Below the pieces are notes generated by a model that worked only from the letters and a program-made list of their open reading frames with translations, was not told the DNA's origin and ran no database searches. Positions 5,434-40,284 of a stretch of DNA of 44,614 nucleotides are shown one piece after another (within the stretch, counting starts at the first letter, position 1; the number at the start of each line of letters is the position of its first letter). The DNA is from an uncultured Myxococcales bacterium (lineage in GTDB: Bacteria > Myxococcota_A > UBA9042): contig CAJBNH010000180.1 in the NCBI GenBank assembly GCA_903955385.1, positions 1-44,614 of the forward strand. The letters are read 5' to 3'. The translations under genes and the position numbers were made by a program.

Positions 5434-7590
5434 ATGATGGTGCAGGCACGAAGTCAAGGAGTGCCCGGAGTTCCGGTCGTGTGTGCGCTGCTGGCCTGGC
5501 TTGCCCTTGGGTGCGCTGCCCCGGTTCAAGGTGACGAGTCGCTGACGGACACCGACCCGGTTTCGGATGTCGCCGACACAACCGATGCCGTCGTTCCTGA
5601 CGTGCCGGACACGGTTGTCGACGTTCTTGCCGATGCTGTCGATGTGCCTGACGCGACGGACCTTTCCGACCTGACGGATACTGCGGACGGCGAGGATGTG
5701 ACGACCGACACGGTCGAGCCCGATGCGCAACCCGACGTCACGCCGACGTGCCTGCCGGAAGAGAAGCACTGCGCGCACACCTTCAGCTATGCGGGTACCG
5801 GAAGTGAGACGACCGTTCAGGTCGCCGGCAGCTGGAACAATTGGAAGGGCGTCGAGATGACCTTGGGCGACGGCGGGTTGTGGTCGGTGGCCCTGACGCT
5901 GCCGCAGAACCTGGCCCTGCACTACAAGTTCGTGGTCGACGGCACCTGGAAGCCCGACCCGTCCAGCCCCGAGACCCGCGTCGACGACGGCTATGGCGGC
6001 AAGAACAGCGTGGTCGGTCCCTTGAGCTGTCCCGACGACGGCACCTGCCCGCCCCCCACCACGGTCTGCGGCATCCCGGCCAAGACCGACGCCTTCGACT
6101 GGCGCAACGGGGTGATGTACTTCGTGTTCGTCGATCGCTTCTTCAACGGCGACCCGAGCAACGACCAGAAGAACGCGACAGAAGGGTTGCCCGAGATCTC
6201 CAACTGGTACGGCGGCGACTGGAAGGGCGTGACGCAGAAGATTCAGGAGGGCTGGTTCACCGACTTGGGCGTCAACGTCCTGTGGCTGACCGTGCCCATG
6301 GACACCACCGACGCGGCCGAGTTCGGCGAGGACGGCAAGCTCTACACGGCCTATCACGGCTACTGGCCACGCGACGTCGACAAGCCCGAGGCGCGCTTCG
6401 GCACCATGGCCGACTTGCAGGCGCTGGTGGCCACCGCACATGGCAAAGGCATTCAGGTGGTGCTCGACTATGCGATGAACCATGTCCACAAGGACTCGCC
6501 GGTCTTCCAGCAGCACCCGGACTGGTTCTTCAAGCTCAACGGCGGCGGCGGCGACTGCATCTGCGGCTCGAACGTCTGCCCCTGGGACGGCCCGTCGGGC
6601 ATCTGGTGCTGGTTCCGCGACTACCTGCCCGACTTCGACTTCAGCAAGGCCGACGCGCGCAAGGCCTCGATCGACAACGTGATGTGGTGGATGAAGCAGA
6701 GCGGTGCCGACGGCCTGCGTCTGGACGCCATCAAGCACATCGACGGCAGCTGGCTGACCGACCTGCGCAAGCGCCTGAATGAGGAGTTGGAGCCCGAACG
6801 CGCCCAGCACATCTGGTTGGTCGGCGAGACCTACACGGGCGACAAGGGCCTGATCAAGTCGTTCGTCGATCCTTGCGCCAAGCTGGACGGACAGTTCGAC
6901 TTTCCGCTGCGGGCCGTTCTGGACGAGGTGCTGCTGCTGCGGACGGGCAAGTTGGGCGACCTCGAGAAGTTCATGAACGAAAACGACTCGTTCTATGGGC
7001 CAAACGCCCTGATGTCGACCTTTGCCGGCAACCACGACCTGCCGCGCATGATCCACTACGCCACCGACCCGCCGCTGTTCGGCAGCGTGTGGGACGCGGG
7101 CAAGGGCTCGGCGTGGAACAATCCGCCCGGCATCGTGCAGGAAGAGGCGGCGTACGAGCGGCTGGTGGTCGCGATGGCCGTGCTGATGACCAACCGCGGC
7201 GTACCCATGATCTATTACGGCGACGAGGTCGGCCTGCCCGGTGCTGGCGACCCGGACAACCGCCGTCCGATGCAGTGGAGCGGCTGGACCGACCCGCAGA
7301 AGAACCTGCTGGACCAGATGCGCAAGCTGGGCAAAATCCGCAAGGAGCACAAGGCGTTGCGACTGGGTACGCGGACGACCGAGTGGGTCGGCGCCGATGC
7401 TTGGGTCTATCGCATGGTGAGTGGCGACGAGACGGTCTACGTGGCGCTGAACCGCAGCGACGCCGTCGTCGAGGCGTCGGGACTGCCCGCGACCGGGACT
7501 TGGCAAGACGCGCTGACGGCCGAGAGTGTCGCGGGCCCTACCGCTGCGCTTGCCCCGCGCTCGGTGCGGATCCTGACCTCAAAGCCCTGA
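5434..7590 (+). CDS. GH13 alpha-amylase-type lipoprotein with N-terminal starch/glycogen-binding-like domain
   Basis: A 718-aa protein. ATG 5434 follows GGAG (5423-5426). The N-terminal signal ends in the lipobox LALGC (C27). Residues about 33-100 are an Asp/Thr/Val-rich linker, and about 108-200 an E-set/CBM48-like domain ('AGSWNNWKGVEMTL', 'YKFVVDGTWKPDP'). The GH13 barrel follows with all four signature regions: DYAMNH (D345), GLRLDAIKH (nucleophile D431), VGETY (acid/base E465) and FAGNHD (H534, D535). It probably hydrolyses alpha-1,4-glucans at the cell surface or in the periplasm; exact specificity (amylase, neopullulanase or cyclodextrinase type) cannot be read off. Its 3' end overlaps the next, convergent gene by 12 bp. 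A glycogen phosphorylase lies about 28 kb away, with no operon link. Confidence 0.9.
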   Translation: MMVQARSQGVPGVPVVCALLAWLALGCAAPVQGDESLTDTDPVSDVADTTDAVVPDVPDTVVDVLADAVDVPDATDLSDLTDTADGEDVTTDTVEPDAQPDVTPTCLPEEKHCAHTFSYAGTGSETTVQVAGSWNNWKGVEMTLGDGGLWSVALTLPQNLALHYKFVVDGTWKPDPSSPETRVDDGYGGKNSVVGPLSCPDDGTCPPPTTVCGIPAKTDAFDWRNGVMYFVFVDRFFNGDPSNDQKNATEGLPEISNWYGGDWKGVTQKIQEGWFTDLGVNVLWLTVPMDTTDAAEFGEDGKLYTAYHGYWPRDVDKPEARFGTMADLQALVATAHGKGIQVVLDYAMNHVHKDSPVFQQHPDWFFKLNGGGGDCICGSNVCPWDGPSGIWCWFRDYLPDFDFSKADARKASIDNVMWWMKQSGADGLRLDAIKHIDGSWLTDLRKRLNEELEPERAQHIWLVGETYTGDKGLIKSFVDPCAKLDGQFDFPLRAVLDEVLLLRTGKLGDLEKFMNENDSFYGPNALMSTFAGNHDLPRMIHYATDPPLFGSVWDAGKGSAWNNPPGIVQEEAAYERLVVAMAVLMTNRGVPMIYYGDEVGLPGAGDPDNRRPMQWSGWTDPQKNLLDQMRKLGKIRKEHKALRLGTRTTEWVGADAWVYRMVSGDETVYVALNRSDAVVEASGLPATGTWQDALTAESVAGPTAALAPRSVRILTSKP

Positions 7591-35561: not shown

Positions 35562-38069
<2,508 letters not shown>

Positions 38070-38119
38070 GGAAACCTCCGAGGGGGGGAGCAGCGGTCAT
38101 CCTTGGGGCACCCGAGACG

Positions 38120-38299
38120 TCAGCGTCGGCGCAGTGCGACGGCCAACACGCCCAGCGCGGCGAATGCGGCGGCGCCCAGCGGGAAGACCGTGCCGGCACC
38201 AGCGACCTGACAGCCGCAACGGGGACCTGGCGCGATGTCGGCCAACACGGGCGTCGCCCACAACAGACCAAGGATCACGAGGCAGAAAGCGCGCTTCAT
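38120..38299 (-). CDS. 59-aa mini-protein: signal peptide plus MYXO-CTERM-like sorting tail
   Basis: ATG 38299 has AGGAG 6 bp upstream. The protein has a signal peptide (MKRAFCLVILGLLW, ending VLA), a short spacer DIAPGP, a CGC cysteine pair, one hydrophobic helix ('LGAAAFAALGVLAVAL') and a terminal RRR. The Cys, transmembrane and Arg-cluster arrangement is that of MYXO-CTERM sorting signals, which normally end large surface proteins of Myxococcota. Here almost nothing lies between the two signals. It may be a sorting by-product, a small membrane peptide or a decayed gene. It is too short for most automatic callers. Confidence 0.6.
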   Translation of the reverse strand: MKRAFCLVILGLLWATPVLADIAPGPRCGCQVAGAGTVFPLGAAAFAALGVLAVALRRR

Positions 38300-38321
38300 C
38301 AGGGCTCCTTATTCGGCGGGA

Positions 38322-38339
38322 GGGCAATTGCCCGGGCAA
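38322..38339. repeat. Overlapping palindromes (possible terminator/attenuator)
   Basis: GGGCAATTGCCC (38322-38333) and TTGCCCGGGCAA (38328-38339) are both perfect 12-bp palindromes and overlap by 6 bp. They lie between the stop of the 72-aa membrane protein gene and the start of the 59-aa gene on the minus strand. They could end transcription of the first or bind a regulator. There is no T-run. Confidence 0.3.
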
Positions 38340-38350
38340 CTGTAGCGCAG

Positions 38351-38569
38351 TCACCGTCCCGTGTAGAGCAATAGCCCCAGCACGACCACCAATGCGCCGC
38401 ACACGCCGACCATCACGGCCGTCGTCGCGCAGAACCATGGAGCGATCATGAGCGTCAGGCCCCCGACGACGTGCAGCAGCCGCGCTTGCGAGCGGGCCCA
38501 GGTGAACAGGGCGAGACCCAGTGTGCCGAAGGCGAAGCTGACCAGCAGGTAGGTGGGGTCGAAGTTCAC
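38351..38569 (-). CDS. 72-aa membrane protein with three predicted helices
   Basis: GTG 38569 gives the N-terminus VNFDPTYLLVSF, with GGAGA about 9 bp upstream. Hydrophobic segments are at about residues 5-23, 28-47 and 50-70 ('YLLVSFAFGTLGLALFTWA', 'LLHVVGGLTLMIAPWF', 'AVMVGVCGALVVVLGLLL'). The pattern (short loop, G..LM..PWF, then a last helix) resembles a widespread family of about 70-residue proteobacterial membrane proteins of unknown function. It may be co-transcribed with the small gene downstream. Confidence 0.55.
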   Translation of the reverse strand: MNFDPTYLLVSFAFGTLGLALFTWARSQARLLHVVGGLTLMIAPWFCATTAVMVGVCGALVVVLGLLLYTGR

Positions 38570-38694
38570 GAGACGCTCTCCCCCGGTGCAGCGGGACCGG
38601 CGCCCGTTGCTTCGCAACCCCGGATGGCTTGGGGATGTTCCGTGACTGGTTCCGGGACGATGAACCGACGTCGCGGCTTCCCCTCAGACGAGTC

Positions 38695-40284
38695 TCAGGT
38701 TGGCGAGCGACGCAGCCGCAACACAGCCTTGCGAAGCACCAAGCGAGTGGCAACGTCGAGTTCCTTGTCCATCCGCAGCATCAGGAAGGGGTAGGGAACC
38801 ATCGCGAGCAGGACGGTGGAGACGCTGACGACGACCGGAAGCCCCCACACATGTCGGGTCAATACACCAGCCACAATGGCTGGCGCCAGGAAGGAAAGGT
38901 GCAGGGCGATATGGCGCAACACAGGAACCACGCTGGCTCCGGCGGCCTTGAGCAAGTGCGATAGGCGCCACAAGATCGCCAGCGACGATGTGACGCTGTA
39001 GAGCAGGAGCGTAGACTTGACGTCGCCCCAGACCAGCGCACCGACGACAATCGTTCCGACGAACGCGAGGAACAGCAGCACCTCGCTGATCAGGTTGAAG
39101 CGGTGCAGCTCCAGAACCGGGAAGAGGACGGTGATGGGCGAAGAGAAGAACATCGCGAAGACCTGCGGCGCCAGCAGCATCGTGTAAGAGCCGGCCTCGG
39201 CCCATTTCGCCCCGAAGACGACCTCGAAGACCAGAGGACCGATCAGCGCGATGGCCACGATAGGCATCAACCCGACCGCGACCAAGCGCTTGCACACGGA
39301 CAGGACCAAAGGTCCCAGGTCGCCCCCCTCGGACCGCGATGCGGCAGCCCGCTCGAACAGCACCTCGCTGATCGCCCCCGCGACAAACGTGCCGGGAATG
39401 TAGAGAAGCCGACGCGACAGTGCGTAGTAGCCCGCCACCGCCGGACCGAAGTAGCCGGCCAAGACAAGACCGGGCGCCTCACGCCCCAGGATGTCGAGCA
39501 GCGAGGCCACCGTGTTCAAGCGCGGAAACCCGCGATAGCGGATGGCAACCGCCCGGAGCCGCTGCCAAGTGCAGTTGCGCACGATGAAGCGGAGGTCTGT
39601 GGACCAGCCCAGCGCGAGCATCAAGAGTGGCGCCAAAAGGAAGCCGCTGAAGACACGTGCATAGATCAGGTGAATGCCCAATCCCAGCCCTGCCGCGCCG
39701 GTTGCGAGCGTGCCCATCGTGTTCGCCAACGAAGACGTGATGCGAACGCCGGTCAATCGATCGAAATTGCGCAGCCGTTGGTTCCATGCGGTCAGCGGCA
39801 GCGCTGCGACCATCAGGAACTGGCCCAACGGAATGATCCACGCGTCGGCATAGAGGGAGTCTGCGTGCATCGTCGCAAGCAGCGGGCGGCCCCCGAACCA
39901 GCACACCACGCCGACCAACACGGTCATCGCCACGGCGATGAGGCCGCTCAAGCCGACCAGGCTCGCCGCGTCCTCGTCTTCTCGAGGCAACAGGATGGCC
40001 GCGTCGTACCGCAGGCAGCCCACCATCGCGGCAATGCCCGTGATCGACCCGAAGATCCCTGCGATACCAAAGGCTTCCGGCGAAAACAGACGAGAGACTA
40101 GCGGTGTCGAGACGACGCCGATGACCTGAACGGCCAACGCCGCGGTGCCGACGGAGGCCGCGTGGCGCATGAAGCCACCTGCGGCCCGCTCCATCCGCGC
40201 GGACGGCGGAATGGCCGCGTCGCTTGGAAGCGCATCGGCAGGCAAGTCCGGCTCGGCAGCGGTGGTTCCACGGTCTTCGCTCAC
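38695..40284 (-). CDS. Wzx-like polysaccharide flippase (MOP/MATE superfamily)
   Basis: A 529-aa protein. GTG 40284 is the longest plausible start; ATG 40194 or 40170 would remove a polar N-terminal tail of 30-38 residues. The rest is a chain of about 12-14 hydrophobic helices beginning 'VGTAALAVQVIGVVSTPLVS' and 'RLFSPEAFGIAGIFGSI', the typical opening of O-antigen/capsule lipid-carrier flippases; 'GREAPGLVLAGYFGPAVAGY' and 'YALSRRLLYIPGTF' are mid-protein family features. It should flip undecaprenyl-linked oligosaccharides across the inner membrane. No glycosyltransferase, polymerase or ligase gene lies within the window, so it looks orphaned. Confidence 0.85.
   Translation of the reverse strand: MSEDRGTTAAEPDLPADALPSDAAIPPSARMERAAGGFMRHAASVGTAALAVQVIGVVSTPLVSRLFSPEAFGIAGIFGSITGIAAMVGCLRYDAAILLPREDEDAASLVGLSGLIAVAMTVLVGVVCWFGGRPLLATMHADSLYADAWIIPLGQFLMVAALPLTAWNQRLRNFDRLTGVRITSSLANTMGTLATGAAGLGLGIHLIYARVFSGFLLAPLLMLALGWSTDLRFIVRNCTWQRLRAVAIRYRGFPRLNTVASLLDILGREAPGLVLAGYFGPAVAGYYALSRRLLYIPGTFVAGAISEVLFERAAASRSEGGDLGPLVLSVCKRLVAVGLMPIVAIALIGPLVFEVVFGAKWAEAGSYTMLLAPQVFAMFFSSPITVLFPVLELHRFNLISEVLLFLAFVGTIVVGALVWGDVKSTLLLYSVTSSLAILWRLSHLLKAAGASVVPVLRHIALHLSFLAPAIVAGVLTRHVWGLPVVVSVSTVLLAMVPYPFLMLRMDKELDVATRLVLRKAVLRLRRSPT

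Follow-up and report, generated by a model that had tools for sequence, protein, structure and literature searches.

The substrates of the MYXO-CTERM sorting pathway are usually viewed as tailed surface proteins. In M. xanthus, the protease MrtX removes the tails and is also sufficient for tail cleavage in E. coli, and its cleavage of TraA needs the adjacent Cys pair of that protein (PMC11980579). That the Cys is lipidated ahead of cleavage is a proposal of the same authors, who describe the acyl-transferase as unidentified and the dependence of cleavage on lipidation as still to be determined (PMC11980579). TraA and MXAN_4924, both sorted by MrtX, have a signal peptide, a Cys motif, a hydrophobic helix and an Arg-rich end (PMC11980579), and all these elements recur in the small gene described here, which also matches the MYXO-CTERM model TIGR03901 and has a myxosortase-family protease in its genome. 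What this mini-gene lacks in comparison is an ectodomain: about 8-10 residues replace the folded receptor, adhesin or enzyme. It differs also in its conserved AD-x(2,3)-PG-x(2)-CxC motif and in that two of its relatives stay just under the cut-off of the model and one has no match.

The window, which is the whole stretch of 44,614 nucleotides that was analysed, comes from an uncultured Myxococcales bacterium, the genome of which (G000) comprises 5.3 Mb on 201 contigs and is 95.6% complete. On the minus strand, at 38120..38299 including the stop codon, an open reading frame with an ATG start encodes a protein of 59 aa (MKRAFCLVILGLLWATPVLADIAPGPRCGCQVAGAGTVFPLGAAAFAALGVLAVALRRR), in which a signal peptide, the core DIAPGPRCGC and a MYXO-CTERM tail directly follow each other. 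The predicted signal peptide (MKRAFCLVILGLLWATPVLA; residues 1-20, 38240..38299, minus strand) comprises MKR, a hydrophobic stretch and VLA before the cut, and charge, hydrophobic core and cut site are present as judged by simple measures (hydropathy, the residues at -3 and -1). The predicted cut between A20 and D21 leaves seven residues before C28 and nine before C30, and the predicted mature peptide DIAPGPRCGC corresponds to residues 21-30 (38210..38239, minus strand). The tail (QVAGAGTVFPLGAAAFAALGVLAVALRRR) is tripartite, with CGC, a hydrophobic stretch (mean hydropathy up to 2.24 for 17 residues) and a terminal RRR; residues 31-59 (38123..38209, minus strand), which hold a linker, the tail helix and RRR, are the part that the myxosortase is predicted to cleave off, in keeping with the match to TIGR03901 over residues 25-59 and with an alignment of the genome's own tails, in which C30 falls on the Cys that is invariant in the other MYXO-CTERM tails. 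A Shine-Dalgarno-like AAGGAG lies at 38305..38310 (minus strand), 5 nt before the ATG (AAGGAG-CCCTG-ATG).

Against a cut-off of 20 bits, the protein reaches 28.5 with TIGR03901 (E 1.5e-6), and together with the reading frame and the ribosome-binding site this bears out the original prediction, which had described a 59-aa product with a signal peptide nearly fused to a MYXO-CTERM-like tail and had proposed a check against the MYXO-CTERM model. There is no Pfam match, no NCBIfam match besides TIGR03901, and none in Rfam or PHROGs. None of 14 named control genomes has a match over the TIGR03901 cut-off (weaker matches, with an E of at most 10, occur in seven of them), and the source genome has 27 such places, the open frames of which range from 62 residues, the mini-gene, over 150 for the next shortest to 3134. 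Four short frames below the cut-off in the same genome were rejected as mini-genes on reading by eye. An HMM made from 25 of the other tails in the genome, trimmed since some of the proteins continue beyond the tail, gave the mini-gene 15.9-16.0 bits, the top score in a six-frame reading of the window. One of 60 random windows held a frame with a score at or above that of the mini-gene, and because of this the match to the genome's own tails is not overwhelming and is by itself no proof of a mini-gene. The genome has seven CPBP proteins, six of which were scanned against NCBIfam, and among them is a myxosortase-family protease (L071, G000:C32:61772-62074) that barely passes the Mrt_core cut-off (101.6 versus 100) and is closest to MrtP, under the equivalog cut-off of which it stays (186 versus 250). 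Model match, tripartite tail, signal peptide and a myxosortase in the genome, taken together, place the window copy among the predicted MYXO-CTERM proteins.

A small homologue was found by whole-protein search in one of the 51 other genomes of the class, the MAG of uncultured Myxococcales bacterium ErkenSummer_bin-0937 (G017, contig CAIXGW010000322.1), where it encodes 62 aa and aligns with residues 3-58 of the 59 (E 1.2e-6 in a 7-Mb genome); it thus supplies the conserved reading frame in a relative that the original prediction had called for. The other matches of this search, in three genomes, all belong to reading frames that are 744 to 1574 residues long. The mini-gene is thus carried by two of 52 genomes of the class and absent from 50. 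The homologue scores 19.3 bits with TIGR03901, just under the cut-off of 20, and is identical to the window copy at 28 of 56 aligned positions, yet these identities are spread unevenly: the core ADxAPGPRCGCQ differs only by I/M, i.e. 11 of 12 residues are identical, against 17 of 44 in the rest of the alignment (p 0.001 by Fisher's test, for a block that was picked after seeing the alignment). The 12 codons of the core show 0/0/7 differences at positions 1/2/3, and six of the seven changed codons are silent; over all 56 codons, the NG86 method gives a dN of 0.52 and a dS of 1.40. With a homologue of this significance and mostly silent changes in the core, a chance reading fails and the reading frame is, as far as sequences can tell, a real gene. 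The part between the predicted cuts appears to be under stricter selection than the parts that would be discarded, and the core to be conserved between two genera, which is the main reason for supposing that the peptide matters. Signal peptides and membrane helices change fast in any protein, and a genuine precursor that carries its product in the middle can therefore be expected to show this contrast between core and rest.

Two further mini-genes, both complete and of 54 aa, come from genomes of a different class in the same phylum. The first, MTWMRALPLTLLFVPLTALA-DVAPGGGCRC-DLTSATLAPSVVVVAIALVAFCRR in genome G046, was found with a loose DNA pattern, and the second, MHRLLPLALLLLPVTALA-DVPPPGGGCRC-DVVSDPNLAWIALAMGLVVMVSRRR in genome G298 of the same family (G298:C531), with a profile from three mini-proteins. 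In the shared PGGGCRCD, these two differ by 0/0/4 at the codon positions, all silent. All four mini-proteins have AD-x(2,3)-PG-x(2)-CxC in common, with A-D, P-G, both Cys and the terminal Arg invariant, and in each of them the predicted cut is at the same place and preceded by [AV]-x-A, as the -3/-1 rule for signal-peptidase sites demands. The copy of G298 reaches 18.4 bits with TIGR03901 and that of G046 has no match, and only the window copy exceeds the cut-off. The window protein finds that of G046 with an E of 1e-4 and that of G298 with an E of 0.026. As only the similarity of the core region connects the two pairs, their common descent is likely rather than certain, and convergence is less likely. 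In another genome, G068, a similar core (DVAPGGGCRC) stands without a helix, without RRR or other Arg cluster and without an A-x-A cut site; this copy has probably decayed, as genes of this kind apparently can.

As to the reach of these searches, the exact core motif occurred without mismatch only in G000 and G017 among 377 genomes of the phylum; three matches with one mismatch were due to chance on reading, and a reversed control pattern hit seven genomes when one mismatch was allowed. The looser DNA pattern matched in 79 of the 377 genomes, its reversed control also hit many, and the matches listed were read by eye, whereby four were followed up and one, that of G046, was kept. Of three profile searches, A1 covered 377 genomes with up to 16 candidates scored in each, and A2, which yielded G298, 349 genomes with up to 18 each; seven matches of A2 were read, which were not all of the short-frame ones, and only G298:C531 was a complete mini-gene, with that of G068 lacking the tail. 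A3 covered 63 genomes of the order of G046 with all candidates scored except in five genomes, and in this set no further complete mini-gene was found, with one short frame of 99 aa not otherwise explained (G239, which by the length of its locus ends some 200 bases short of a contig end). Absences in A1 and A2 are weak, and those in the 52 genomes of the class and in A3 are better. A script that was run over 195 loci found the mini-gene layout in four places only. TIGR03901 matches over the cut-off are present in all 21 genomes of the family that were searched; eight further frames of 62-157 aa outside the source genome, among the matches listed down to an E of about 0.002, were rejected as mini-genes: five run off contig ends, L098 follows an in-frame TAG, and on reading by eye L095 does not start with a signal peptide and L097 is chance-like. 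A pattern search of viral contigs gave 67 stretches, none of them a relative, and among the paper titles listed by literature searches none concerned minimal MYXO-CTERM substrates.

The explanation that fits best, in which we have about even confidence, is that the gene encodes a minimal MYXO-CTERM precursor, which cuts at both ends would turn into a peptide of some 8-10 residues anchored by a lipid; its processing and function are inferred. The precursor would be exported by Sec and cut by signal peptidase I after VLA, with Asp21 as new N-terminus, and the C-terminal helix with RRR would hold it in the inner membrane. If the model published for TraA applies, one Cys in CGC would then receive a lipid, most probably Cys30 as the counterpart of the invariant Cys in the alignment, whereupon the myxosortase-family protease of the genome could cut just behind the lipidated Cys and thereby remove helix and RRR. 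The end product would be a lipid-held DIAPGPRCGC if the cut is behind Cys30, or DIAPGPRC if it is behind Cys28. As indicated by the gene anatomy, the model match, the protease in the genome, the conservation of the core and a layout shared by four genomes, the peptide itself would most likely be the product, a lipopeptide of the cell envelope that may signal or may act on membranes or, via CxC, on metals. Against this explanation count the three mini-proteins under the TIGR03901 cut-off, the borderline protease and the probable decay in G068. Whatever the mini-gene does, it is dispensable for most of the class, as only two of the 52 genomes carry it. A peptide of 8-10 residues is unlikely to be a folded substrate of type II secretion, and surface delivery as for TraA may therefore not apply. 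A substrate with little beyond a conserved ten-residue core would extend the known output of the pathway to tiny lipopeptides, and without its signal peptide the protein has 39 residues and thus fits intact mass spectrometry, which could reveal the lipidated Cys, the type of lipid and the cut site of the myxosortase.

The a-factor of yeast is a lipopeptide pheromone that is processed by the CAAX/Rce1 pathway. By analogy, the mini-protein would resemble it as a short precursor that is trimmed at both ends to a Cys-lipidated peptide of about ten residues, with the C-terminal cut made by a protease of the CPBP family; unlike the mini-protein with its predicted Sec export, a-factor uses an ABC transporter, no relation by descent is claimed, and lipidation, cut and signalling are putative for the mini-protein. 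A bolder idea, speculative and in our own estimate unlikely, is that the mini-genes represent a class of bacterial lipopeptide signals of the type D-x(2,3)-PG-x(2)-CxC, the N-end of which would be freed by signal peptidase and the C-end by a CPBP-family myxosortase after Cys lipidation, a counterpart of a-factor and Rce1 in logic. If this is true, the sorting machinery is used for making peptides, not for anchoring proteins.

The strongest competing explanation, which we regard as rather unlikely, is that of a small membrane protein that is not processed at all, with two helices flanking a periplasmic D..PGxxCxC loop for metal binding or a disulfide, with RRR setting only the topology, and with a merely compositional resemblance to MYXO-CTERM. 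That three of the four mini-proteins are below the cut-off, including one without any match, is in its favour, as is the presence of CxC in all four, whereas 23 of the 25 other aligned tails of the source genome have a motif with a single Cys. Yet CxC is present also in two full-size MYXO-CTERM tails of that genome (L004 and L006), the window copy is clearly over the cut-off, and all four mini-proteins have a signal-peptidase site by the -3/-1 rule at the same place.

That the gene is a remnant, formed when an internal deletion in a larger MYXO-CTERM protein of the SP-ADVAPP... type fused both ends, appears improbable as an explanation of what it is today. Candidates for such a parent exist: L027 in the source genome, a MYXO-CTERM protein in a 150-aa frame with the start SP-ADVAPPNTYGC, is weakly found with the mini-protein as query (E 0.053) and with two- and three-row profiles (E 0.009 and 0.038), and in G017 a MYXO-CTERM protein (L098) starts with ADVPPP. 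Both resemble the mini-protein in the mature start ADV-A/P-P and the tail and differ from it by about 90 or more residues in between, and any relation by descent would be putative; a search with the L027 protein in six genomes gave only weak matches outside the source genome (best E 0.0017), too weak to define an L027 family. The core without tail in G068 would also agree with a remnant. The core of the mini-gene, however, is under apparent selection between two genera, and mini-genes of this layout, with 54-62 aa, are found in two classes, unlike what fresh remnants would do. It is plausible that the gene arose when an ADVAPP-type protein, for instance L027, suffered a deletion, and such an origin would be compatible with a present function. 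L098 itself (G017:C291, about 7080-7590; ADVPPPEGYV... type) has an in-frame TAG shortly into the mature part, and is either a pseudogene or affected by a sequence error.

Quite improbable is a role as competitor or tracer, in which the tail would tune the display of other substrates by occupying lipidating enzyme and myxosortase. The mini-protein consists of two processing signals and little else, and the source genome has 26 other matches over the cut-off, but a competitor needs the tail alone, which does not explain why four genomes keep AD-x(2,3)-PG, and the mini-gene is absent from 50 of 52 genomes of the class even though all 21 family genomes searched have MYXO-CTERM matches over the cut-off. 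The AD-x(2,3)-PG part is not known to be needed by a MYXO-CTERM tail, which points to a selected product rather than to a leftover or an arbitrary decoy. Competitor, tracer and remnant, the interpretations offered by the original prediction, are thus less likely than a minimal precursor, whereas the model match and the conserved frame, by which that prediction was to be checked, were both found, and the link to glgP was not supported. A chance reading frame without any gene is hardly conceivable, as the equally good tail-only match in one of 60 random windows and the failure to find a sigma-70-like promoter are outweighed by a nearly full-length homologue, silent core changes and a ribosome-binding site.

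The gene glgP (glycogen/starch phosphorylase; 35562..38069, minus strand) lies 50 nt downstream of the mini-gene on the same strand, and it had been suggested that relatives might have the mini-gene beside it. This partnership was rejected: in G017, glgP and the mini-gene are on different contigs, and no mini-gene is among the reading frames just upstream of glgP. The two glgP products are 82% identical over the 240 N-terminal residues and 79% over 812. It is observed aside from this that a close glgP orthologue (82%) and the mini-gene are each confined to the same two of 22 family genomes, G000 and G017, which by our own arithmetic is an event of about 1 in 21, the genome of the window being fixed by choice; phosphorylases of about 50% identity are found in G002 and at a second place in G000. 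About 50 bases upstream of the mini-gene, on the same strand, a small membrane protein of 72 aa is encoded (38351..38569, minus strand, likely GTG start), which can also be read from an earlier TTG as 88 aa and the Pfam matches of which are all below the cut-off. Co-transcription of the mini-gene with its same-strand neighbours is possible; within 37900-38800, no sigma-70-like promoter and no terminator were found. Two overlapping perfect palindromes of 12 bases, GGGCAATTGCCC and TTGCCCGGGCAA, are located just upstream of the ribosome-binding site at 38322-38339 and constitute a possible operator.

In G046, the mini-gene overlaps by four bases with the gene of a 341-aa membrane protein (L139:5294-6319) that has no match in Pfam or PHROGs and only a meaningless 9-bit match in NCBIfam. 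A relative of this protein (L175:2355-2969, 35% identity over 214 residues) follows the decayed core in G068, and the membrane protein is thus a possible partner of the mini-protein in these genomes; the short contig of G298 has no such gene. As neither glgP nor the 341-aa type of gene is shared across the mini-gene loci, there is no general neighbour.

A side observation concerns the full-size tails of the source genome, in six of 25 of which the reading frame continues past the MYXO-CTERM motif, which is therefore internal (L010, L014, L020, L021, L022 and L025); in five of these six, the motif is followed by repeats of the type D-x-D-x-D-G...CP, as read by eye. In M. xanthus, MXAN_5598 has an internal motif ahead of beta-barrel and OmpA domains (PMC11980579), and the source genome may be rich in MYXO-CTERM fusions with such internal motifs.
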